A stretch of 58,845 bases of DNA from Planctomycetaceae bacterium (GTDB lineage Bacteria > Planctomycetota > Planctomycetia > Pirellulales > PALSA-1355), in contig PLYM01000136.1 in the NCBI GenBank assembly GCA_003153375.1, forward strand, positions 1 through 58,845. Direction: 5' to 3'. Both the position numbers and the translations under genes were made by a program. Position 1 is the stretch's first letter; every line of letters starts with the position of its first letter. The notes under the pieces were generated by a model. It was given only the letters and a program-made list of their open reading frames with translations, made no database searches and was not told the DNA's origin. Below, in pieces: positions 23,319 to 58,845 of this stretch.

Positions 23319-23831
23319 TCAGGCCGCAGGAGAAGCAGGGGGCCTCGTGCGTCGCAAGTTGACGATCAAATAGATCACCACCGCGACGTTCACCACGAGC
23401 AGAACGGCTTTGGCCGCGGTGGGATGCCGCAGCAACTCGTGGACTTCCACTGGAATCATCAGCCCGATGGCGATCGAGGTGAGATACTCGGCCCACCGCT
23501 TGCCGCGCCACAGCCCAAAGCCTTCGATCAGCTTCAGCCCGCCGTAGATGAACGAGCCGGCGCTGATCTCCTCGAGCTGTTGATCGCTCAAAAGTCCCAG
23601 CCGGGCGAGCAGTGCGTGCAGGTATTCGTTGTGCGGGTCGATGCGCACGGCCGCCGACCAGGCCGCCACGGTCGCCGCCACGTCGTGGTGTACCAGGCGC
23701 AACACGCCGATCGCCACGGCCAGCACCAGCATGCCCTCCACCAGCCGCAGCGCACCGATCAACTCGAGCAGGCAGTTTTTCTTGGGCGCCGGCGCGTGCG
23801 GTGAGGGGGTGCCGTCGGTCGTGTCGGTCAT
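23319..23831 (-). CDS. DUF2127-type membrane protein
   Basis: 170 residues from ATG 23831. The pattern LLELIGALRLVEGMLVLAVAIGVLRL, then EISAGSFIYGGLKLIEGFGLWRGKRWAEYLTSIAIGLMIPVEVHELL and a last helix AVLLVVNVAVVIYLIVNLR matches DUF2127, small integral membrane proteins of unknown role. The start overlaps the stop of the rhombosortase gene by 4 bases (ATGA); an upstream extension of the frame runs inside that gene and is not used. It is the last gene of the VIT/VWA, rhombosortase, DUF2127 operon. Confidence 0.8.
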   Translation of the reverse strand: MTDTTDGTPSPHAPAPKKNCLLELIGALRLVEGMLVLAVAIGVLRLVHHDVAATVAAWSAAVRIDPHNEYLHALLARLGLLSDQQLEEISAGSFIYGGLKLIEGFGLWRGKRWAEYLTSIAIGLMIPVEVHELLRHPTAAKAVLLVVNVAVVIYLIVNLRRTRPPASPAA

Positions 23832-24553
23832 GGGTTGCAGATCAGGGTCGCCTGCGAATCGGTCCGCCGATCGGTTTGGCACCGGTCGTGCCCCGATTCT
23901 AGCGAAACCAAGCGCGGCTGGCGCGTGAGCAGCTTCCCCGACCATGCCACCAGCACGCCGGCGCCGACGCCGACGGCGTGTACCAGCGGCAACGGCGTGA
24001 AACCCGCGGACGACGAATCGACGAACAGGGTTGCGCCCGTGGCGACTTCATATCCCAACTTGGCCAGCAACCCAACGAGCAAGGCGACCAGCGCTCCTCG
24101 GACGAGCAGTCGCCGCCCCCCGCGGGCTTCGTCCCACAGTTCGAGCGCTGCCAGGGTGAAGAGCGCCGTGTCGATTCCGCTCAATCCCCGATAGAGCACG
24201 ACCGTGGGTTCGACGAACCACAACGTCGCGGAGATCGCCGCCGTCGAGAGAATTAGCACGGAGACCAGCGCTCTGCGTCCGCGGCTTTCCAGCATCGTTC
24301 CTAACAGGGCGAACATCAGCACGTCCCAAACCAAATGGTCGGCGTTCCAATGGGTGAGGTGACCCGTCGCGAGTCGCCACACCTGACCGGCCGCGATGCT
24401 GCCGCGGTCGTAGGCCAGACCGCCGCCCCAGTCGGCCGCAGCCAGCAACATCGCGATCGTGGCCACCGTCCAGGTGATGAACGGGCGTTGAGAACCCCGG
24501 GCACGGGCAGGGGCGCGGGATGCGTTTGCCAAGGTCTGACAGTTCTTGAACAT
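23828..24553 (-). CDS. rrtA: Rhombosortase (rhomboid-family GlyGly-CTERM protease)
   Basis: 241 residues with about six membrane helices. The segment GHLTHWNADHLVWDVLMFALLG holds the His-x4-His helix of rhomboids, with Asp where classical rhomboids often have Asn. The nucleophile is Ser125 in YRGLSGIDTALF and the partner is probably His192 in PLPLVHAVGVGAG. This short layout is that of rhombosortases, which cleave C-terminal Gly-Gly, hydrophobic, basic sorting tails in the membrane. ATG 24553 has GAGG about nine bases upstream; the longer upstream frame lacks a site and crosses a hairpin. The gene directly upstream encodes a protein with just such a tail. Confidence 0.87.
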   Translation of the reverse strand: MFKNCQTLANASRAPARARGSQRPFITWTVATIAMLLAAADWGGGLAYDRGSIAAGQVWRLATGHLTHWNADHLVWDVLMFALLGTMLESRGRRALVSVLILSTAAISATLWFVEPTVVLYRGLSGIDTALFTLAALELWDEARGGRRLLVRGALVALLVGLLAKLGYEVATGATLFVDSSSAGFTPLPLVHAVGVGAGVLVAWSGKLLTRQPRLVSLESGHDRCQTDRRTDSQATLICNP

Positions 24554-24588
24554 CCGAAAATTCCTCAGAGCATGGTTCGGTGAAAGTG

Positions 24589-24628
24589 AAAAAGCAGACC
24601 CGCGGGCCACCTTCCTGGCAGCCCGCGG
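24589..24628 (-). terminator. Hairpin with T-run between substrate and protease genes
   Basis: On the minus strand an 8-bp stem CCGCGGGC / GCCCGCGG (24621-24628 with 24600-24607) around a 13-base loop is followed by GTCTGC and five Ts (24589-24593). It lies between the stop of the VIT/VWA gene and the start of the rhombosortase gene, so it may act as a partial terminator giving more substrate than protease. Confidence 0.55.
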
Positions 24629-24651
24629 ATCGCTCCCCTCTCGCATTCGCG

Positions 24652-26880
24652 TTAGCAAGACCAGTGGGCGCCGCGGCGTCCTGGTTTACGCCGGCTGGCC
24701 CAACCAAGTCCCGCCAGACCGGCGGCGATCAATCCCGTCAGCGGATCGATTGCACCACCACCACGGCCCGAGCGGGCATGGCGTCCGGACGTCACCTGCG
24801 GAGCAAAGGCATCGACCGGAGGGGTGTTGTCGGTCGTTGGCGCTTGCGAAGTTGACGGCGTTTGCGCGGCCGGCGGTGCCTGCACGGCCGGCTGCTGGTT
24901 CGGATCGACCGCGGCGACCTGGGTCGGCGCGGTTTCGGTCCTGGAGCGCCCCGTCCGTTTGGCCTGCTGCTTGAGCGACTCGGACGCTTGGGGTCCGACT
25001 TGCTGGGCCGTTTGTCGCCGCAGCTCCTCGAGTCGTTCGTGAACGGCCAGTTGCGCCTGGCGATCGCGACCGACACGCGTGGCGTTGCGGCGGTCGATCT
25101 TCCAGCGTTGATACTCGGCATCGTTTTCCAACACGATGAACGAGGCAAACTCGCTGGCGATCGAGTAGCCCTCGCACAGCCGCACGATCTCATCGACCGC
25201 GCCGGGCGTGCCCTCGCGGCGGCCGTCGCCCATCAGGCGCTCCACGCGGTGCAGGGCCCACATCCGCTCGATCTCCGGGTTGTCCTGGTCTTCGGAGGGC
25301 AGATTGATGGCCACGGCTTGTTGCGTGGGACAGCCCAGCAGGTCGGCCTTGAGCTGCACTTTCGCCGGACCATTCTTCTTGTACCGGCCATAGAGCCGGA
25401 CCGGCTGGCCGAAGTACAGGTTCGGCAATTGCTGCGGTTCGAGATCGTAGACTTCGGCGCCCTCGAAGCTGAGCTGCACGTTCGTGGCGGCCGGGTGCGT
25501 CAGCTTGCGGCGAAATGCGCCGGCTTGCTGCTCGAAGTTATCGCCCGAAGACATGAAGGCGGCCAATCCGCCGGTCTCCGTGGCCAGTTGCGACAGCAAC
25601 GGACGATTCACCTCGTTGCCCACGCCGATGCAGAAGACGCTCGAGCCGGTGGGTCGCTGCTTGATCAGTTGCAACAGCTCGCGCTGTTCGCGCTGCTCGG
25701 TCATGCCGTCGGACAGCACCACGACGTTGAGCTGCCGATCGGCGTTGTAGTAGCGATAGGCCGCTTCGATCGCCGGGTGCAGCACGGTGCCGCCCAGCGG
25801 TTTTTGCGAGCGCAGGAATTCGGCCGCCCGCTGCTTGTTCTCCGCGTTGACGCTCGTCATCGTGCTAAACAGCGGCGTGGAGGCGATGTTGAACGTGATC
25901 AACTCGAATCGGTCCTCCTCGTCCAGCGACTGCACGAAGGCGTTGACCAGATCCCGTGACAAGCCGAGCTTGCCGTCGTGTACCATGCTGCCCGAGATGT
26001 CGATCACGAACACATAGTCACTTCCTTTCAGCTTGCCTTCCAGCTCCTTGCCGGCGGTCATGGTGAGTTGAAAGTAGCCATCCTCGCCGCCGGTCTTCGA
26101 GGTGATCAGGTCGATGCCAGTGCGGGGCCGTTCGAGTTGATAGTCGAGCACCAGGTCGCGGGTCAGATCCGCGGCTTGGGTTTCAAGGCTGGCTTGCCAG
26201 TAGTTGGGGTTCGCGTTCTTGACCACGACGAACTGATCGGCGTGCGACAGGCTCTTCAGCTCGACGATCGGCACTTCGCTCTTCACGTCCAGGGCGAACG
26301 AAAACCGGCCCGATGTTTTCTGATCGGCCTTGGCCTGCGTGACCGTGGCCAGCGGATAGGTGTAGCTGGCCCGGTCGTGATCGAAATCCAACTCCTGATA
26401 GTACGTCACGCGCACGCGCTGCTCGCCGCGGGCGGCGATCGGAAAGATGCGCATTTCGAACCGCTTGTAGTCGACCTGTTCGAGCAGGCCCGGATCGCGG
26501 CGCACTTTCTTGTAGCTTTCGTAGATCTGGCGGGCTTTCTCTTTCTCGACGACTTCGCCGATCATCTCCTTGCCGCCAATCCACATGCTGAAGTTCGAGA
26601 TCGAAGCCTGCTTGGGCACCGGGAAAGTGTAGAGGGCCTCGACCACCCGGTTTTCGGTGTTCTCGAACACCTGCTCCACTTCGCTCACGGCCACGCCGTT
26701 GTTGATCGTGACGCGCACGTCGTGGCTCTTGATCTGCAACTGACCGCCGAAGCCGCGGTCGGACACCAACATTCCGGCGCCGTGCGCCGCTGTTGACCAG
26801 CAGCAGACCAGCGCCAGCGGGGCCAGGGCCACGAGAGCCGCTCGGACAGCGAGGCGGCGTTTTGCACACTTCCACATCAT
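24652..26880 (-). CDS. VIT and VWA domain protein with GlyGly-CTERM-like sorting tail
   Basis: 742 residues. A signal peptide (AALVALAPLALVCCWSTAAHGA) leads to a VIT domain (about residues 33-165, including VEQVFENTENRVVEALYTFP). The VWA domain (about 290-460) has an intact metal site: DISGS, the Thr of LGGTVLHP and the Asp of VVLSDGM. A Gln/Pro/Thr-rich linker precedes the last 35 residues: SGRGGGAID, a hydrophobic stretch (LIAAGLAGLGW) and a basic end (ASRRKPGRRG), the plan of a GlyGly-CTERM signal. ATG 26880 has AAGGAGA six bases upstream. The same domain pair is found in proteins that are sortase targets elsewhere. Here the likely processing enzyme is the next gene. Confidence 0.88.
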   Translation of the reverse strand: MMWKCAKRRLAVRAALVALAPLALVCCWSTAAHGAGMLVSDRGFGGQLQIKSHDVRVTINNGVAVSEVEQVFENTENRVVEALYTFPVPKQASISNFSMWIGGKEMIGEVVEKEKARQIYESYKKVRRDPGLLEQVDYKRFEMRIFPIAARGEQRVRVTYYQELDFDHDRASYTYPLATVTQAKADQKTSGRFSFALDVKSEVPIVELKSLSHADQFVVVKNANPNYWQASLETQAADLTRDLVLDYQLERPRTGIDLITSKTGGEDGYFQLTMTAGKELEGKLKGSDYVFVIDISGSMVHDGKLGLSRDLVNAFVQSLDEEDRFELITFNIASTPLFSTMTSVNAENKQRAAEFLRSQKPLGGTVLHPAIEAAYRYYNADRQLNVVVLSDGMTEQREQRELLQLIKQRPTGSSVFCIGVGNEVNRPLLSQLATETGGLAAFMSSGDNFEQQAGAFRRKLTHPAATNVQLSFEGAEVYDLEPQQLPNLYFGQPVRLYGRYKKNGPAKVQLKADLLGCPTQQAVAINLPSEDQDNPEIERMWALHRVERLMGDGRREGTPGAVDEIVRLCEGYSIASEFASFIVLENDAEYQRWKIDRRNATRVGRDRQAQLAVHERLEELRRQTAQQVGPQASESLKQQAKRTGRSRTETAPTQVAAVDPNQQPAVQAPPAAQTPSTSQAPTTDNTPPVDAFAPQVTSGRHARSGRGGGAIDPLTGLIAAGLAGLGWASRRKPGRRGAHWSC

Positions 26881-26943
26881 GACGAGTCTCCTTATCGAGG
26901 GGTGAAATCTCGCGGCCAACCAGGTCGCGTCGATCCGTCCTAA

Positions 26944-26960
26944 GTCACTTCTTGTGCCAA
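26944..26960 (-). promoter_or_regulatory. Candidate sigma-54 promoter of the VIT/VWA operon
   Basis: On the minus strand TTGGCAC (26954-26960) is followed after five bases by GTGA. The -24 box matches the sigma-54 consensus exactly, but the -12 box has A where C is expected, which weakens the call. It lies about 75 bases before ATG 26880 and next to a divergent sigma-54 activator gene. Confidence 0.4.
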
Positions 26961-27067
26961 GAATGATCGGCGTTTTGTAAATGCTTGTTGGCCAGGGCAT
27001 TAGGTGTCTTGTTGTCTGGCCGGGTGCGGTTGGTGATTGGTCTCGGATGTGCAATGGATGTCTGGTC

Positions 27068-27088
27068 GACGTACATTGGATGTACGTC
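27068..27088. promoter_or_regulatory. Inverted repeat, possible activator binding site
   Basis: GACGTACAT and ATGTACGTC form perfect 9-bp arms around TGG. It lies 41 bases before the sigma-54 activator gene and about 120 bases upstream of the -24 box of the VIT/VWA promoter candidate, a normal place for an enhancer site. A related half-site (TGGATGTCTGG) lies just before it. Confidence 0.55.
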
Positions 27089-27128
27089 CAGTGATGCTCA
27101 CGTGACCCCCGAACCGAGGGCCCGAAAC

Positions 27129-28691
27129 ATGGCGGATCGCAAGGCACTGTTCACTGCCACGGAGCGGAAATTTGCCGAAGCGGTTGCGCAGTTGGCGCAC
27201 TGCAATCCGTTTCTGCCGGAGCGCATCGCCTGCGAGCGAGCCGCATTGGGCGACGAGTTCGACGAGCATCTGGCCGATTGGAACGTCAGGCCCGACGCCG
27301 AGAGCGATCATCCCAACTTGCTGCGACTGCTCGCGCGCTGTGAAGCGACGTTGCAAGGCGCTCGCGAGCACGTTCGCCAGGCGAGTAGCCCGCGCGAGCG
27401 GGCTCTTTATGAAGACTTGCTGCTGATGACGCTTTATCACCGTCATCGGAAAGCGCTGGACGAATTGATTCGCGAGGGCTCAGCCCGGCCCGGCGGGCAA
27501 CGGCCGGGCAGCCTCTACCGGGCGCTGAAGCGCGACGCCGAGCACTTTCTGGGCGCAGCGCCCTCGTCGTTCGTCGAGCAGTTGCCGCACCTGTTCGCGG
27601 GCTTCTTTCAAATTCGCCGCGCCTTCGAAAACATCTTCCGCTTGATTCACGGCGTGTCGCGGCCGGCCATCCAATTGCGCGCCGCCGTCTGGGAGTCGAT
27701 CTTCACCCACGACATGCGCCGCTATCGCCGCGTGCTCTACGAACGCATGGCGGACTACACCACCTTGGTCACCGGCCCTTCGGGCACCGGCAAGGAATTG
27801 GTCGCCCAGGCGATCGGCCTGTCGCGCTATATTCCGTTCGACGCGGGGGCGGGCAAGTTTCGCGAGGACTTTGCCTGCTCGTTCTACGCGGTCAACTTAA
27901 GCGCGCTCAGCCCGACGCTGATCGAGTCGGAACTGTTCGGCCACAGGCGGGGCGCATTTACCGGCGCGATCGCCGACCGGCAGGGCTGGCTCGAGGTCTG
28001 TCCCAGCCTGGGAACCGTGTTCCTCGACGAGATCGGCGAGCTCGACGCGAGCATTCAGGTCAAGTTGCTGCGCGTGTTGCAGTCGCGGGCCTTCAGTCCC
28101 TTGGGCGAGACGGCGGTCCGCGAGTTTCGCGGCAAGATCATCGCCGCCACGAACCGCAACCTGTTCGAGGAGATGCAGGCCGGCCGCTTTCGCCAGGACT
28201 TCTATTACCGGCTCTGCTCGGACATGGTCGAAGTGCCCAGCCTGCAAACGCGGATTCAGGATAACGCCGAGGAGTTGCCGCACCTGGTGACGCATCTCGC
28301 CCAGCGAGCGGTGGGGGCCGAGGCGCCCGAGCTGGCCGAGGAGGTCGTGCAATGGGTCGACCGCCAACTGGGCCGCGATTATCCGTGGCCGGGCAACATT
28401 CGCGAGCTCGAGCAATGCTTGCGCAACGTCCTGATCCGCCGGGCCTACACGCCACCGCGAGAGAGCGGCAACAAGCCGGCCACCGACACGCACCAGGAAC
28501 TCCTGAGGGCCATTCTCGGCGGGGAACTGACCGCCGACGAGCTGTTGCGGCGCTATTGCACGCTCGTCTATCGCGCCACGGGCAGTTACGAAGCCACGGC
28601 ACGACGGTTGCAAATCGACCGCCGCACCGTGCGTGCAAAAGTGGATGCCGAGGTGCTCGATCGCATTCAGCATGCGCCGCGAGCCGAATGA
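27129..28691 (+). CDS. Sigma-54-dependent transcriptional activator
   Basis: 520 residues. The AAA+ domain has Walker A GPSGTGKE (from residue 216), the sigma-54 contact loop GAFTGA (residue 275), Walker [10 protein letters not shown], then the arginine-finger region [15 protein letters not shown] and [20 protein letters not shown]-terminal helix-turn-helix is seen as [21 protein letters not shown]. The 170-residue N-terminus is helical and is not a receiver, GAF or PAS domain that I recognise, so the signal is unknown. ATG 27129 has GAGGG about eight bases upstream; a longer frame opens upstream but contains the inverted repeat. It is divergent from the VIT/VWA operon and its stop faces the hydrogenase maturation genes. 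Confidence 0.9.
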
Positions 28692-28712: not shown

Positions 28713-29216
28713 TCAGGCGCTCGATGCGGGCAGGTCGCGGTGCAGCAGGCGCCCGACGAGTGTTTCCACCAGTTCAACCGCCGGATCGACGGCGGCAAGG
28801 ACGCTGGGGCTCATGCCGCTTGACATGTCTTCCGAGACCATTCGGTCAGGCTCGCAACCGACAACCGTCAGTTGCGGCGGTTTGCCGCCCATCATCGCCA
28901 CGTAGCGCAGCACTTGCACCGGATCCATCTCGTGCACGTGTGGCGGCGCGGACACGGACGCTGCCTCGTCGAGTTCCGGTTCGATCACATAGAGCGTGCC
29001 CGGCGCTTGGCCTCCGGGCACCGCGTCGATCAGAATCGCATGCTCGTAGCCGTCCATCAGGGCATGGGCCAGGTCGAGACCGCGGATGCCAAAGTCGATG
29101 AGTCTGACGTCCTCGGAAACGGGACGCCCGGCCAGTCGATAGACCGCTTCGACGCCGAACGCATCGTCGCCCATGAAAATGTTGCCGATGCCGCCCACGA
29201 GAATGCGAGGTGTCAT
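28713..29216 (-). CDS. Hydrogenase maturation endopeptidase, HyaD/HybD family (M52)
   Basis: 167 residues, cytosolic. ILVGGIGNIFMGDDAFGVEAV at the N-terminus is the family signature, where the Glu/Asp residues bind the nickel of the large subunit. LIDFGIRGLDLAHALMDGYEHAILIDAV follows, and HVHEMDPVQVL supplies the usual conserved His. This enzyme trims the C-terminus of a [NiFe] hydrogenase large subunit after nickel insertion. No structural hydrogenase gene is in the window. It follows hypA by 109 bases on the same strand, so the two are probably one operon. The 3' end is 21 bases from the stop of the convergent sigma-54 activator. Confidence 0.88.
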   Translation of the reverse strand: MTPRILVGGIGNIFMGDDAFGVEAVYRLAGRPVSEDVRLIDFGIRGLDLAHALMDGYEHAILIDAVPGGQAPGTLYVIEPELDEAASVSAPPHVHEMDPVQVLRYVAMMGGKPPQLTVVGCEPDRMVSEDMSSGMSPSVLAAVDPAVELVETLVGRLLHRDLPASSA

Positions 29217-29325
29217 GCTTCTTGTTGCCGCGCGTCGGGATCGCCGAGCAGTTCGACCTCCATGGGTGCAAAGAAGAAGCGGTGCCCCACCTGTCGCAGC
29301 TATTGTGCCATCCGAATGGGGATTT

Positions 29326-29691
29326 TTAGTGCGGGGCCTCGGCGGCCTCGGCCACCTCGATCGAGACGAGGTCCAACTCGCGCCCCGTGAGTACTTCCGG
29401 CGTCGGCGTCCCGCAAGTCGGACAAGAGAATTGATAGATGCTCGGCAGCGTTTGCTGCGCCTGGCAATGCGGGCACATGACGGTTAGCGGCACGTCCTCA
29501 ATCGCTAGCACCGCGCCGGCACAGGCCGTGTCTTCCGCGGCCAAATTGAAGGAAAGCAGGAGCGACTCCTTCACCACCCCCGATAGTGCGCCGACGCGTA
29601 CCGACAATCGGATCACCCGAACGGCCCCTTCGCGCTGGGCGGTTTCGCAGGCCAGGGCGATCAAGCTTTGAGCAATCGACAATTCGTGCAT
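29326..29691 (-). CDS. hypA: Hydrogenase nickel incorporation protein HypA
   Basis: 121 residues. MHELSIAQSLIALA holds the nickel-binding MHE motif, whose His2 is essential. The C-terminal zinc site is two Cys pairs, CPHC and CPTC. ATG 29691 has AGGAG five bases upstream; the frame is open further upstream, but that part is non-coding. HypA, usually with HypB, delivers nickel to the hydrogenase large subunit. HypB is not encoded in this window. A TTGGCACG box lies about 170 bases upstream on the same strand. Confidence 0.93.
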   Translation of the reverse strand: MHELSIAQSLIALACETAQREGAVRVIRLSVRVGALSGVVKESLLLSFNLAAEDTACAGAVLAIEDVPLTVMCPHCQAQQTLPSIYQFSCPTCGTPTPEVLTGRELDLVSIEVAEAAEAPH

Positions 29692-29854
29692 CTGCACTCC
29701 TGCTTGAACGCGGCCGGGATGCGCTGTCCGCCAGGACGCCCCTCGATTGATCGGTTTCGGTGAGCCTAAGTCGACCACATAGGCTATTAAGTTGCCAGTC
29801 TCAGCGGCCCATACGAATCCATTCGTTGGCCGCGAGCCGACGGAGCCACGCCGA

Positions 29855-29870
29855 TCAACTCGCGTGCCAA
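29855..29870 (-). promoter_or_regulatory. Candidate sigma-54 promoter upstream of hypA
   Basis: On the minus strand TTGGCACG, four bases, then TTGA (29870 down to 29855). The -24 half is a perfect consensus with correct spacing; the -12 half has A where C is expected, exactly as in the candidate at 26944-26960. The 372-base gap between hypA and hypE also holds a CCCACC/GGTGGG inverted repeat; I found no matching sigma-54 site for hypE. Confidence 0.42.
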
Positions 29871-30064
29871 GCAATCTGCATTCTCGGGAGCCCGCACCCA
29901 CCCTCGGTGGGGAATGAATTTTGCAGTGGCTCGCCATCTGTTTCCTATGCACTGCCGGGGACGAATCTTACCGCCCGAGGGGGCCTGCGCTGCCCACTTC
30001 AAGTATCGAGCAGTAGAACCTGTCGAACTTCCCGTCATCCAAGGATTAGGAAAATCCCTCGTTC

Positions 30065-31108
30065 ATGGCCATCGCAACTCCCCGACCCATTCAGTTCCAC
30101 AATAAACCGATTGCGATGGCCCACGGCGCCGGTGGTGAGGCCACCCGACAACTGGTCGAGGGCTTGTTCCTGCCGGCGTTTGCCAATTCGCTGCTCGATT
30201 CGCTCGCGGACGCGGCGACCCTGCTGCCGCCGCCGGGCCGGCTGGCAATCACGACCGATAGTTTTGTCGTCCACCCCTTGCGCTTTCCGGGCGGTTCGAT
30301 CGGCGAGTTGGCCGTCAACGGCACGGTCAACGATCTGGCCGTGTCGGGCGCGACGCCGTTGGCTTTGACAACCGCGTTCATCCTCGAAGCAGGCACGCCA
30401 TCGGAAATTCTGCGGGCCGAGGTTTGCGCGATGGCCGCTGCCGCCCGGCGCGTGGGCGTGCCGATCGCCAGCGGCGATACGAAGGTCGTCGAGCACGGCC
30501 GGGCCGACGGCATGTACATCGTGACCACGGGACTAGGCGTGGTCGATGCTCGGGCCAATTTGAGCGTGGCCCGTGTCGAGGCGGGCGATTGCATTCTGCT
30601 TTCCGGACCGATTGGCAATCATGGCATGGCGATCATGTTGGCACGCGCCGAACTCGACATCGAAGCCGACATTCGTTCCGATACCCGGCCGCTGGTCGAA
30701 CTGACCTTGGCACTGGTCACTCGGCTTGGCGACAGCCTCAAGTGGATGCGCGATGCCACGCGAGGCGGCGTGGCCACGGTGCTCAACGAACTGGCCCGCG
30801 ACGCCGATCTGCTGGTCATGATCGAGGAAGAAGCCGTGCCGGTCGACGACGCGGTGCGCGGAGCGTGCGAACTGTTGGGGCTCGATCCGTTGCAAGTCGC
30901 CAACGAAGGACAGTTCGTGGCGGTCGTGGCGGCCGATATGGTCGATGCGGCGCTCGCTGCGCTGCGCGCCGTGCCGGGAGGCGAGCGAGCTTGTCTGTTG
31001 GGCGAAGTGAGTCGCGGTGCCCACTCGCGGGTCGCGGCCCGAGCGGCCTACGGCGGCATGCGGGTGGTCGACATGTTGATTGGCGATCCGTTGCCGCGCA
31101 TCTGCTGA
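30065..31108 (+). CDS. hypE: Hydrogenase maturation protein HypE
   Basis: 347 residues. AHGAGGEATRQLV starts the AIR-synthase-like ATP-binding domain, ITTDSFVVHPLRFPGGSIG and VNGTVNDLAVSGA form the active-site region, and DATRGGVATVLNEL is also present. The last four residues are PRIC, with the C-terminal Cys that HypF carbamoylates and HypE dehydrates to a thiocyanate for the iron ligand, so it should be functional. The start ATG 30065 follows an AGGATTAGGA-rich leader. It is the first gene of a plus-strand group with hypF, divergent from hypA. Confidence 0.94.
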   Translation: MAIATPRPIQFHNKPIAMAHGAGGEATRQLVEGLFLPAFANSLLDSLADAATLLPPPGRLAITTDSFVVHPLRFPGGSIGELAVNGTVNDLAVSGATPLALTTAFILEAGTPSEILRAEVCAMAAAARRVGVPIASGDTKVVEHGRADGMYIVTTGLGVVDARANLSVARVEAGDCILLSGPIGNHGMAIMLARAELDIEADIRSDTRPLVELTLALVTRLGDSLKWMRDATRGGVATVLNELARDADLLVMIEEEAVPVDDAVRGACELLGLDPLQVANEGQFVAVVAADMVDAALAALRAVPGGERACLLGEVSRGAHSRVAARAAYGGMRVVDMLIGDPLPRIC

Positions 31109-31166
31109 AATGATGCCGAACCGATGCCTGCCGTTGCCGATCTGACGTCGTTCGTGCAGTCGCAGT

Positions 31167-31355
31167 TTGCCTTGCGAAACCCGCAAGCGCGGCATGTTGA
31201 CCGCGGCGCTGTTGGGCTATGATGGCGGCGACATCGTGCGCCAGGGGCTTGCCGACCACACGTTTGTCGTGCCCTCGGACTACATCCCGCGGATCCAGGA
31301 AGTGCAAGCTTCGATCTATCACGTGCTGCGGCTGGCGCTGGCCGCGCTCGATTAA
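31167..31355 (+). pseudogene. C-terminal remnant of a SIS-domain (GmhA-like) isomerase
   Basis: The frame reads MLTAALLGYDGGDIVRQGLA, then FVVPSDYIPRIQEVQASIYHVLRL, which matches the last 60 residues of sedoheptulose-7-phosphate isomerase-like SIS proteins. A full protein would need about 130 more residues. Upstream the frame stops at 31143, and hypE ends at 31108, so no room is left. SIS genes do occur inside hyp clusters of other bacteria, so this looks like a deletion relic between hypE and hypF rather than a real small gene. Confidence 0.72.
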
Positions 31356-31395
31356 CCACGTCTGGGAAGATCGCCGCCGGGCGATCGAAATCGAC

Positions 31396-33690
31396 ATGTC
31401 CACCGAGCTGCCTGATCAGCCGCGCACCGCGTGTCGCGTGACGATCCGCGGTATCGTGCAGGGCGTGGGGCTGCGGCCGTTCGTGTTTCGCGCGGCCCAG
31501 CACCACCAGGTGGCCGGCTGGGTGCAAAACGACGCGGCCGGTGTCGAGGTGCACGCCGAAGCCACGCCGCGGGCGATTCAGGCGTTTGTCGACGAGCTGC
31601 GCGCCGATTGTCCGCCGGCGGCCCGCATTGCCGAGTTCGCCATGCGCAGCGTCGCCGCCGAGGGTATCGCCGACTTTCAGATTCGCGCCAGCCGCCGCGA
31701 AGGCCCTCCCACGGTCCGCGTCACGCCCGACTTGTGCATCTGTCCGGACTGTCTGGCCGAGCTGTTCGATCCGGCCGACCGGCATTTTCACTATCCCTAC
31801 ATCAACTGCACGAACTGTGGACCGCGCTACTCGATCGTCCAGCGTCTGCCCTACGATCGGGCGAACACCACGATGGTCGGCTGGCCGATGTGTTCGAGCT
31901 GCCGCGCCGAGTATGACAATCGGCTCGACCGCCGTTACCATGCCCAGCCGGTTGCTTGCCCGGCCTGCGGCCCCGCCTATCGATTGCTCGAGGGCGAAGT
32001 GACCGTCGACGACTCGAGTCGCGCCATCGAGCGAGCCGCCGCGATGATCAAGGCGGGACGGATCGTGGCGATCAAGGGAATCGGCGGCTATCACCTGGCC
32101 TGCGATGCGCGCCGGCCGGCGGCGGTCGAGTCGCTGCGCAGTCGCAAGTATCGTAAGGAAAAGCCCTTCGCCGTCATGGTGCGCAATCTCGACGAAGCCC
32201 GCGAGCTCGCCGAGTTGTCGGCCGAGCACGAACGCTTGCTCGAAGACGTGGCCCGGCCCATTGTCCTGGCTCCTCGCAGAGTGGAGCTGCCGGGCGTCGC
32301 GCCTGACAACGTTCTGCTGGGCATCATGCTTCCCTACACGCCGCTGCACCACCTGCTGTTTGCCGCCGGAGCGCCCAGCCCGCTGGTCCTGACCAGCGCC
32401 AACCGCTCCAGCGAGCCGATCGCCTTCCGCGATGCCGACGCGCTCGAGGCACTCTCGGGCATTGCCGATGCGTTTCTGATGGGCGAGCGGCCGATCGCGC
32501 GGCGGGTCGACGATTCGGTGGTGGCCGTGCGCGGGAGTCGCACGCAGATGATTCGCCGCTCGCGCGGCTATACGCCGACGGTCGTCGGCCACCTGGCAAT
32601 CGACGAGCCGCTGCTCGCGGTGGGCGCCGATCTGAAGAATACGATCGCGCTGGTCGTCCACGGTGACGTCCTTGTCAGCCAGCACATCGGCGACTTGGGC
32701 GATCTGGAGACGGACCGCTCGTTCGCCGACACCGTGGGCGACTTGCTGGCGATGTACGAGATTGATCCGCGCGACCTGGTGATTGCGCACGACCGTCATC
32801 CCGAGTTCGTCTCCACCCGGTTCGCGCTCTCGCTGCCGGCCCGGATGCACGTGGCCGTGCAACATCATCACGCGCACGTGGCCAGCGTGATGGCCGAGCA
32901 CGAACTGCTCGAGGAGCCGGTCGTGGGCGTGGCTTTCGATGGAACTGGCTACGGCAACGACGGCGCGATTTGGGGCGGCGAGTTTTTCGTCGGCAGCGTG
33001 CGCTCTGGCTTCACGCGCGAGGACTCGCTGCGCCCCGTGCAGATGCCCGGTGGCGATGCGGCGGCGCGTTTCCCCGTGCAAGCGGCCGCGGGGTTCCTGG
33101 CCGAACTGGACGACCTGCCTGACATGACGGCTGAGCCGTTTGGCTTTCCGGCGCGGTTCCATCAAGCGCGGCAACTGGTCGAGCGGCGCGTGCGCTGCTT
33201 CACGTCGACGTCGGCTGGCCGGCTGTTCGACGCCGTGGCGGCGCTCGTCGGGTTCACGCGCGAATCGACCTTCGAGGGGCAGGCCGCGATGTGGCTCGAA
33301 TTTCAGGCCCGGGCATCCGCGCCGCGGTCGCCCTATCCCTGCGACGGACTCGATGCCCGCCCGCTATTGCGCGCGATCATCCGCGATCGGCTGGCGGGAC
33401 GTCCGATCGGTGAGATCGCCGCGGCTTTTCACGCGACGCTGGCCGCGACGGTCGTCGAGCAGATGGCCTTGCTCGCGGGTCGGCACGGCCTGCGATTCGC
33501 CGCCCTGTCGGGCGGAGTGTTTCAAAACGAACTGCTCGTCGAGTCGATCGACCGCGAAGTGAGCGCCCGGGGTTTGCCGATCAAGTTGTTGTTCAACAGC
33601 AGCGTGCCGGCCAACGACGGCGGGATTGCGCTGGGACAGGCCGCGCTGGCGAGCATGGTGTTATCGCTGGGCGGCGAGCTGCTACGATGA
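31396..33690 (+). CDS. hypF: Carbamoyltransferase HypF
   Basis: 764 residues, full length. Order: acylphosphatase domain with RGIVQGVGLRPFVFR (about residues 15-100), zinc fingers with CICPDCL, CTNCGPRYS, CSSCRAEY and CPACGP, a YrdC-like domain (AIKGIGGYHLACDA, KPFAVMV, LTSANRSSEP), and a C-terminal Kae1-like domain with HHHAHVASVMAEH, VAFDGTGYGNDG and LSGGVFQNELL. It uses carbamoyl phosphate and ATP to supply the carbamoyl group to HypE. ATG 31396 is chosen because the acylphosphatase domain starts 15 residues later; the open frame upstream overlaps the SIS remnant. Confidence 0.94.
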   Translation: MSTELPDQPRTACRVTIRGIVQGVGLRPFVFRAAQHHQVAGWVQNDAAGVEVHAEATPRAIQAFVDELRADCPPAARIAEFAMRSVAAEGIADFQIRASRREGPPTVRVTPDLCICPDCLAELFDPADRHFHYPYINCTNCGPRYSIVQRLPYDRANTTMVGWPMCSSCRAEYDNRLDRRYHAQPVACPACGPAYRLLEGEVTVDDSSRAIERAAAMIKAGRIVAIKGIGGYHLACDARRPAAVESLRSRKYRKEKPFAVMVRNLDEARELAELSAEHERLLEDVARPIVLAPRRVELPGVAPDNVLLGIMLPYTPLHHLLFAAGAPSPLVLTSANRSSEPIAFRDADALEALSGIADAFLMGERPIARRVDDSVVAVRGSRTQMIRRSRGYTPTVVGHLAIDEPLLAVGADLKNTIALVVHGDVLVSQHIGDLGDLETDRSFADTVGDLLAMYEIDPRDLVIAHDRHPEFVSTRFALSLPARMHVAVQHHHAHVASVMAEHELLEEPVVGVAFDGTGYGNDGAIWGGEFFVGSVRSGFTREDSLRPVQMPGGDAAARFPVQAAAGFLAELDDLPDMTAEPFGFPARFHQARQLVERRVRCFTSTSAGRLFDAVAALVGFTRESTFEGQAAMWLEFQARASAPRSPYPCDGLDARPLLRAIIRDRLAGRPIGEIAAAFHATLAATVVEQMALLAGRHGLRFAALSGGVFQNELLVESIDREVSARGLPIKLLFNSSVPANDGGIALGQAALASMVLSLGGELLR

Positions 33691-58724: not shown

Positions 58725-58845
58725 TTATGCGGAGTTCACCCGCCGCGATAGAGCCTTCAACCCCGCATGAATCGGCCGATCCGCCCGCAACTCCGCATAA
58801 CGCGGGACTCTGCATAATTGCGGTTATGCGGAGCTCCGCATAACC
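58725..58845. repeat. Nested inverted repeats at the outer end of the recombinase element
   Basis: The 10-mer TTATGCGGAG or its complement CTCCGCATAA occurs four times: 58725-58734, 58791-58800, 58824-58833 and 58834-58843. The first two extend to a 12-bp inverted pair (58725-58736 with 58789-58800), and the last two form a perfect 24-bp palindrome at 58822-58845, ending at the last base. They lie upstream of the first recombinase, where the crossover and binding sites of such elements are expected. Confidence 0.85.

Follow-up and report, generated by a model that had tools for sequence, protein, structure and literature searches.

A predicted phased enhancer between a sigma-54 activator gene and a VIT/VWA–rhombosortase operon in a planctomycete

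PspF of Escherichia coli is encoded divergently from the sigma-54-dependent psp operon that it regulates, an arrangement it has in common with the activator described here, and it lacks an N-terminal regulatory domain. The site of NifA has the form TGT-N10-ACA. According to PMC7229158, PspF feeds back negatively on its expression and makes use of IHF. In Desulfovibrio vulgaris, 6 of the 13 one-component sigma-54 activators (bEBPs) are reported as divergent from a sigma-54 promoter, bEBP motifs hold TGT and ACA 9, 11 or 12 bp apart, and two of the proteins have N-terminal regions of unknown kind (PMC4641369). Rhombosortases form dedicated pairs with GlyGly-CTERM proteins (Haft and others 2011, PMC3237569), among which are VWA/inter-alpha-trypsin-type targets and an adjacent pair in Rhodopirellula baltica; transcriptional control is not treated in that paper, where ‘transcription’ and ‘sigma’ both have 0 occurrences. 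Planctomycetota are covered by a 2025 survey of sigma-54 promoters (PMC12316311), the main text of which does not contain ‘VWA’, ‘von Willebrand’ or ‘rhombo’. In the literature searched, no regulator of VIT/VWA–rhombosortase operons is described.

The locus analysed here looks like an enhancer design of a known kind, with a regulator, a sensor part and a site for which the literature searched gave no description. As in PspF–pspA, the enhancer would lie in a shared intergenic region and the predicted targets are membrane-related, and PspA/IM30 is itself the divergent gene in one Myxococcota relative of the activator; unlike PspF, the activator has a 200-residue helical N-terminal domain. The sequence TGTACATTNNATGTACA is a TGT-N11-ACA site, resembling the D. 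vulgaris bEBP motifs reported in PMC4641369, from which it differs in having a self-complementary hexamer as half-site, of which up to four copies follow one another at 11-bp intervals. The rhombosortase stands next to a single target, as in the dedicated pairs of PMC3237569.

The intergenic region and its neighbours

The window, which is the whole stretch of 58,845 nucleotides that was analysed, contains an intergenic stretch (26881–27128) between a minus-strand VIT/VWA gene (ATG at 26880) and a plus-strand sigma-54 activator gene (ATG at 27129). Its features are as follows.

23828–24658, minus strand: rhombosortase, second gene of the predicted operon (TIGR03902, 112.1 bits, cut-off 84)
24652–26880, minus strand: VIT/VWA protein, the predicted target (PF08487, 9.5e-31; PF13768, 1.8e-20)
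26943–26948, minus strand: −12 region GTGACT, off consensus (TTGCW)
26954–26960, minus strand: TTGGCAC, the −24 element (perfect consensus) of the sigma-54 promoter predicted for the VIT/VWA operon
27046–27066: GATGTGCAA-TGG-ATGTCTGGT, a second, degenerate site at an offset of 22 bp from the palindrome, on the same helix face
27048–27086: four TGTACA-like half-sites in 11-bp steps, read from their letters and from the periodicity in relatives
27068–27088: GACGTACAT-TGG-ATGTACGTC, the palindrome and strong dimer-type site in the predicted enhancer
27129–28691, plus strand: sigma-54 activator (PF00158, 3.7e-45; AlphaFold2 model, pLDDT 91.7)

The rhombosortase scores above the model cut-off and adjoins the VIT/VWA gene, whose translation ends in a Gly-rich, hydrophobic and basic tail; the NCBIfam hits include no GlyGly-CTERM model for it. 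As listed, the minus-strand frame of a DUF2127 protein (23319–23945) overlaps the rhombosortase frame by 118 bases, and its true start probably lies further downstream. On the other side of the activator gene are hydrogenase maturation genes (28713–33690; HycI-like protease, HypA, HypE-like and HypF), which have no match in the loci of the 13 relatives compared. A second sigma-54-like site, TGGCACGCGAGTTGAT, occupies 29854–29869 of the minus strand, 163 bases upstream of hypA (start at 29691), and its −12 element also reads TTGA, not TTGC. A perfect palindrome at 58822–58845 stops exactly where both window and contig stop, and is possibly an assembly artefact.

In the AlphaFold2 model, the activator is composed of a helical N-terminal domain (residues 1–201), an AAA+ domain with GAFTGA (208–437) and a helical, helix-turn-helix-like C-terminal region. 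Its Pfam matches are confined to the AAA+ part (208–436), and its best PDB matches are FleQ, NtrC1 and ZraR. Across 47 orthologues, G275 and A280 of the GAFTGA region are invariant, and F277, T278 and G279 are at least 90% conserved. The protein falls well below the cut-offs of the PspF family model (TIGR02974, 140.4 bits against 443.55) and the RtcR family model (NF038308, 198.8 bits against 650). The N-terminal domain alone, modelled at pLDDT 91.4, has no Foldseek match in the PDB at E ≤ 0.001 and no Pfam family at E ≤ 0.01. Its best VIA-align match is a 14-3-3 protein (Z 5.4, r.m.s.d. 5.1, 110 aligned residues); no fold was concluded because a Z of 5.4 is within the range of common helical arrangements. 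HTH_8 (Fis-type helix-turn-helix) gives weak matches in 10 of 47 family members at E ≤ 0.1 (best E 0.011); the window activator is absent from the listed hits, and its model shows a helical C-terminal region. No description of the activator, its sensor part or its site was found in the literature searched. Studholme and Dixon (2004), a work cited in PMC12316311 that reportedly dealt with Pirellula bEBPs, may already list the activator or the promoter.

The first-pass annotation had described a perfect 9-bp inverted repeat with a 3-base loop about 120 bases from a −24 box, and both the repeat (27068–27088) and the spacing are borne out, with 107 bases between the two elements and 121 from centre to centre. 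The repeat belongs to a larger unit: 16 bases at 27046 recur 81% alike at 27068, an offset of exactly 22 bp, and the half-sites read TGTGCA (27048), TGTCTG (27059), CGTACA (27070) and TGTACG (27081). Since TGTACA is its own reverse complement, two neighbouring half-sites 11 bp apart form a palindrome. The array lies 41–83 bp upstream of the activator’s own start codon. A match to the palindrome with three or fewer mismatches occurs once in the window (0.01 expected), and a perfect 9-bp arm with a loop of up to 8 bases arose in 3 of 400 dinucleotide shuffles of 26881–27128; by itself the palindrome is thus unusual but not overwhelming, and conservation is the deciding evidence. In the 6.7-Mb genome the core GTACAT-N3-ATGTAC occurs exactly only here, with one other place at 1 mismatch. 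A reversed-pattern control matches equally often, so the core is no genome-wide repeat, and the single 1-mismatch match, which does not rise above that control, is all that the search for further array targets in this genome returned.

Conservation of the array and the predicted divergent promoter

Of the order's 396 genomes, 48 have orthologues of the activator (E ≤ 1e-80). One genome has two, giving 49 matches; one match, L099, is cut at its start and was left out, resulting in 48 upstream regions including that of the window, and the orthologues are related by descent, so that counts over these regions are non-independent. The comparison across relatives that the first-pass annotation had proposed as a check was run, and both elements recur: 26 of the 48 regions hold the core with two or fewer mismatches, whereas 100 shuffled sets average 0.28 such regions and never exceed 2, and 35 carry a sigma-54 site on the divergent strand. 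Of the regions beyond these 26, 9 hold the core at 3 mismatches and 13 at 4 or 5. Among 180 arms composed of the same letters, the GTACAT-type arm is found in 26 of the 48 regions and the next best in 6, the mean of the other 179 being 0.5. The core is absent from all 15 evaluable loci of other sigma-54 activators (16 loci, with start codons set crudely).

The periodicity extends beyond the palindrome. Hexamers within one mismatch of TGTACA form 20 pairs at a spacing of 11 bp (0.2 expected), 17 at 21–23 bp (0.4 expected) and 13 at 32–34 bp (0.4 expected), and 25 of 26 sites have T in column +6, a position that the search pattern left free. These are repeated dyad sites in helical phase, as in sigma-54 enhancers. 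The leading enriched 6- and 7-mers of the upstream regions are the array and the sigma-54 boxes, and no informative columns of a conserved −10/−35 promoter for the activator appear around the array. Both the activator (at E ≤ 1e-80) and the VIT gene (at E ≤ 1e-60) are missing from the three genomes sampled within the same genus and family as the window.

The TTGGCAC box placed by the first-pass annotation on the strand of the VIT/VWA operon is indeed present (minus strand, 26960–26954). The window promoter has 3 mismatches overall, with a perfect −24 and GTGAC instead of TTGCW at −12. With two or fewer mismatches, YTGGCACRNNNNTTGCW is found on the divergent strand in 35 of the 48 regions and on the activator’s strand in 3, against 1.56 in shuffles. 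A matrix built from the 35 sites, with the window left out of training, scores the window at 16.5 against 7.7 for the best of 40 shuffles. The closest relative, L032, also outside the training set, has a perfect palindrome and a weak promoter (7.8 against 6.9 for the best shuffle); L033, with TTGGCAC-N5-TTGAT, scores 19.5 but was part of the training set; and L037 has a perfect palindrome and no promoter better than 4 mismatches. The window, L032 and L033 share a TGA at −12, with A for C. Such a TTGA may be tolerated in the window’s genome, because TGGCAC-N5-TTG[C/A]W has 31 matches there (21 with C, 10 with A) compared with 10 for the reversed pattern. The genome encodes RpoN (PF00309, 1.8e-15, above cut-off).

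The distance from palindrome centre to −24 in the 19 loci with a good palindrome and a good promoter, the window among them, is 92–97 bp in ten and 115–119 bp in five, two clusters about two helical turns apart, and 73, 87, 129 and 141 bp in the other four; in the window it is 118 bp. In most relatives measured, dimer-type TGTACA-like sites thus lie on one helix face approximately 90–120 bp upstream of a predicted divergent sigma-54 promoter, and this array–promoter layout, as read from sequence, is conserved along with the activator gene. Of the first-pass proposal that the palindrome and the −24 box have the normal geometry of a sigma-54 activator site, the enhancer reading is supported, while the unit is an array of four half-sites and the −12 of the window is off consensus. 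An IHF site between enhancer and promoter was considered and rejected, as the IHF consensus matches only 3 of the 48 regions, in contrast to the use of IHF by PspF.

Unlinked candidate targets, other divergent partners and other phyla

VIT orthologues (E ≤ 1e-120) are found in 31 of the 396 genomes, 19 of which also have the activator. Their upstream regions were scored for a promoter with three or fewer mismatches together with either a palindrome with three or fewer mismatches or phased hexamers. Array and promoter occur together at 9 of the 13 VIT genes beside the activator (leaving out L102, in which a gene termed g33 intervenes), at 2 of the 6 whose activator is on another contig or far off (in genomes G053 and G089, the other four missing the thresholds), and at none of the 10 evaluable VIT genes of activator-less genomes. 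Two of these ten, L123 and L126, passed the loose promoter threshold alone; outside the ten, L129 is cut, and L140, in which the contig ends inside the region and a promoter and one half-site are kept, was set apart. The difference between genomes with and without the activator (11 of 19 against 0 of 10) has a Fisher p of 0.0035; for the unlinked loci alone against the activator-less ones, p is 0.125. The palindrome-to-−24 spacings in G053 and G089, 117 and 94 bp, fall inside the two clusters, and a third unlinked locus (L134, in G118) has a promoter with 3 mismatches and, 116 bp away, a palindrome with 4, which is below threshold. Approximately 1.5 kb beyond the rhombosortase gene of G089 is another sigma-54 AAA+ gene (L136:813–1415; 40% identity over 220 residues), whose product might act as regulator of that VIT locus; no such gene was seen around the VIT gene in G053 (L138). 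The g33 gene also lies between activator and VIT genes in L033, beyond the rhombosortase gene in L038 (367 residues) and divergent to an activator homologue in L231, where no Pfam match was found for it.

In one activator clade, comprising 19 loci, the divergent partner is a multi-pass membrane protein, mtm (954 residues in L040, L040:9412–12273; multi-pass as read from the sequence), for which no Pfam family was found at E ≤ 0.01. Matches to mtm occur in 50 of the 396 genomes, and 30 loci were returned. Array and promoter accompany mtm at 11 of 15 loci beside the activator, regions already counted among the 48, and at 0 of 14 where the activator was not found (rows read by hand); L161, in which the activator is elsewhere, passed the loose promoter threshold alone. 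The activators paired with mtm group in a single clade (100/99) of the 47-member activator tree, on which pairing with VIT requires 5 changes.

A further 71 loci (15 in-order, 56 from named genomes) have neither VIT nor mtm. Of these, 42 were inspected for a divergent frame, and 20 frames picked by eye were scanned with Pfam, with membrane- or lipid-related matches in 7:

L246: acyltransferase
L258 and L267: MFS–acyltransferase–AMP-binding fusions
L270: CDP-alcohol phosphatidyltransferase
L264:3122–3871: PspA/IM30, divergent from the activator homologue of a Myxococcota MAG
L244: DUF2157 membrane protein
L204: BamE match, below cut-off

The other scanned partners are three radical SAM proteins (two below cut-off), two hydrolases, a peptidase, an aminotransferase, an EVE protein, an FG-GAP protein and four without a match. 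The envelope theme among the partners is a lead, not a result, and from these partners one might guess that the N-terminal domain of the activator senses the state of the membrane.

Across the phylum, 31 of the 294 genomes searched have the N-terminal domain. Loci were obtained for 18 of 29 matches outside the order; the palindrome with two or fewer mismatches is found in 11 of them (0.02 expected), a VIT match in the fetched locus in 8, and a promoter with two or fewer mismatches in 4 on the divergent strand and 1 on the other. A scan of named genomes returned 243 relatives, of which 80 were kept, nearly all of them MAGs, labelled Planctomycetota, Verrucomicrobia, Lentisphaerae, Kiritimatiellota, Acidobacteria, Methylomirabilota/NC10, Deltaproteobacteria, Myxococcota, Sumerlaeota and Nitrospinota. 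The palindrome occurs in 36 of the 80 (0.3 expected); 9 of the 80 are in the in-order set and 11 among the 18 loci, and 24 of the other 60 have it. A divergent VIT gene adjoins the activator in 22 of the 80, followed by a rhombosortase match in 21 of the 22 (hand count).

Predicted mechanism and competing explanations

We consider it very probable (roughly 85%) that the activator encoded by the adjoining gene uses the palindrome as the strong half of its enhancer (UAS), and that this enhancer drives the divergent sigma-54-dependent VIT/VWA operon. The activator would bind the array as two adjacent dimers through its C-terminal region; a signal to the helical N-terminal domain would allow the AAA+ ring to assemble, and looping of the DNA would bring it into contact with sigma-54 RNA polymerase waiting at 26960–26943, firing the VIT/VWA–rhombosortase operon. 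Binding to the array would probably also limit expression of the activator itself, because the array lies so close upstream of its start codon. The autoregulation suggested by the first-pass annotation is possible, and is more likely to be repression, because a sigma-54 site is on the activator’s strand in only 3 of the 48 regions.

The same position would suit an array that serves purely as an operator, through which the activator gene is repressed by its own product or by another protein while the VIT operon is driven otherwise. In some relatives the array is within 10–30 bp of the activator’s start codon, and outside the order it is better kept than the promoter (11 against 4 of 18 loci). 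This reading is nevertheless improbable, given that in G053 and G089 array and promoter accompany VIT genes lying on a different contig from the activator, and that the promoter is on the divergent strand in 35 of the 48 regions. The site could also belong to a different DNA-binding protein, with the activator a mere neighbour: binding by the activator is a prediction from sequence, and TGT/ACA half-sites are common to several Desulfovibrio activators. We regard this as very unlikely, since the core recurs with the activator family across phyla and is missing at the 15 loci of other sigma-54 activators, and in genomes for which the search did not turn up the activator, neither the VIT genes (0 of 10) nor the membrane-protein genes (0 of 14) have core and promoter together.

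That the inverted repeat might act as an RNA hairpin or terminator in the activator’s leader is suggested by its perfect 9-bp stem and 3-base loop, which start 61 bases before the start codon. No T-run follows the repeat, many relatives have spaced half-sites with an 11-bp periodicity rather than a perfect stem, and two VIT genes unlinked to the activator also have the array upstream of their promoter, all of which makes such a role barely credible.

On a broader scale, and with somewhat less than even odds, the cross-phylum one-component sigma-54 activators with this undescribed helical sensor domain could constitute a second PspF-like envelope-stress switch, in which one phased TGTACA enhancer has been kept over deep time while the divergent target was exchanged (VIT/VWA–rhombosortase, a multi-pass membrane protein, phospholipid enzymes or PspA). 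For an activator family found in MAGs and genomes that carry the labels Planctomycetota, Verrucomicrobiota, Acidobacteriota, Methylomirabilota and others, the result provides a precise predicted operator, and it supplies a predicted promoter for VIT/VWA–rhombosortase operons. The array would be usable as a marker for finding targets in the genomes of relatives, and through it a system of surface proteins is linked to an activator that has some membrane and lipid genes among its other partners.
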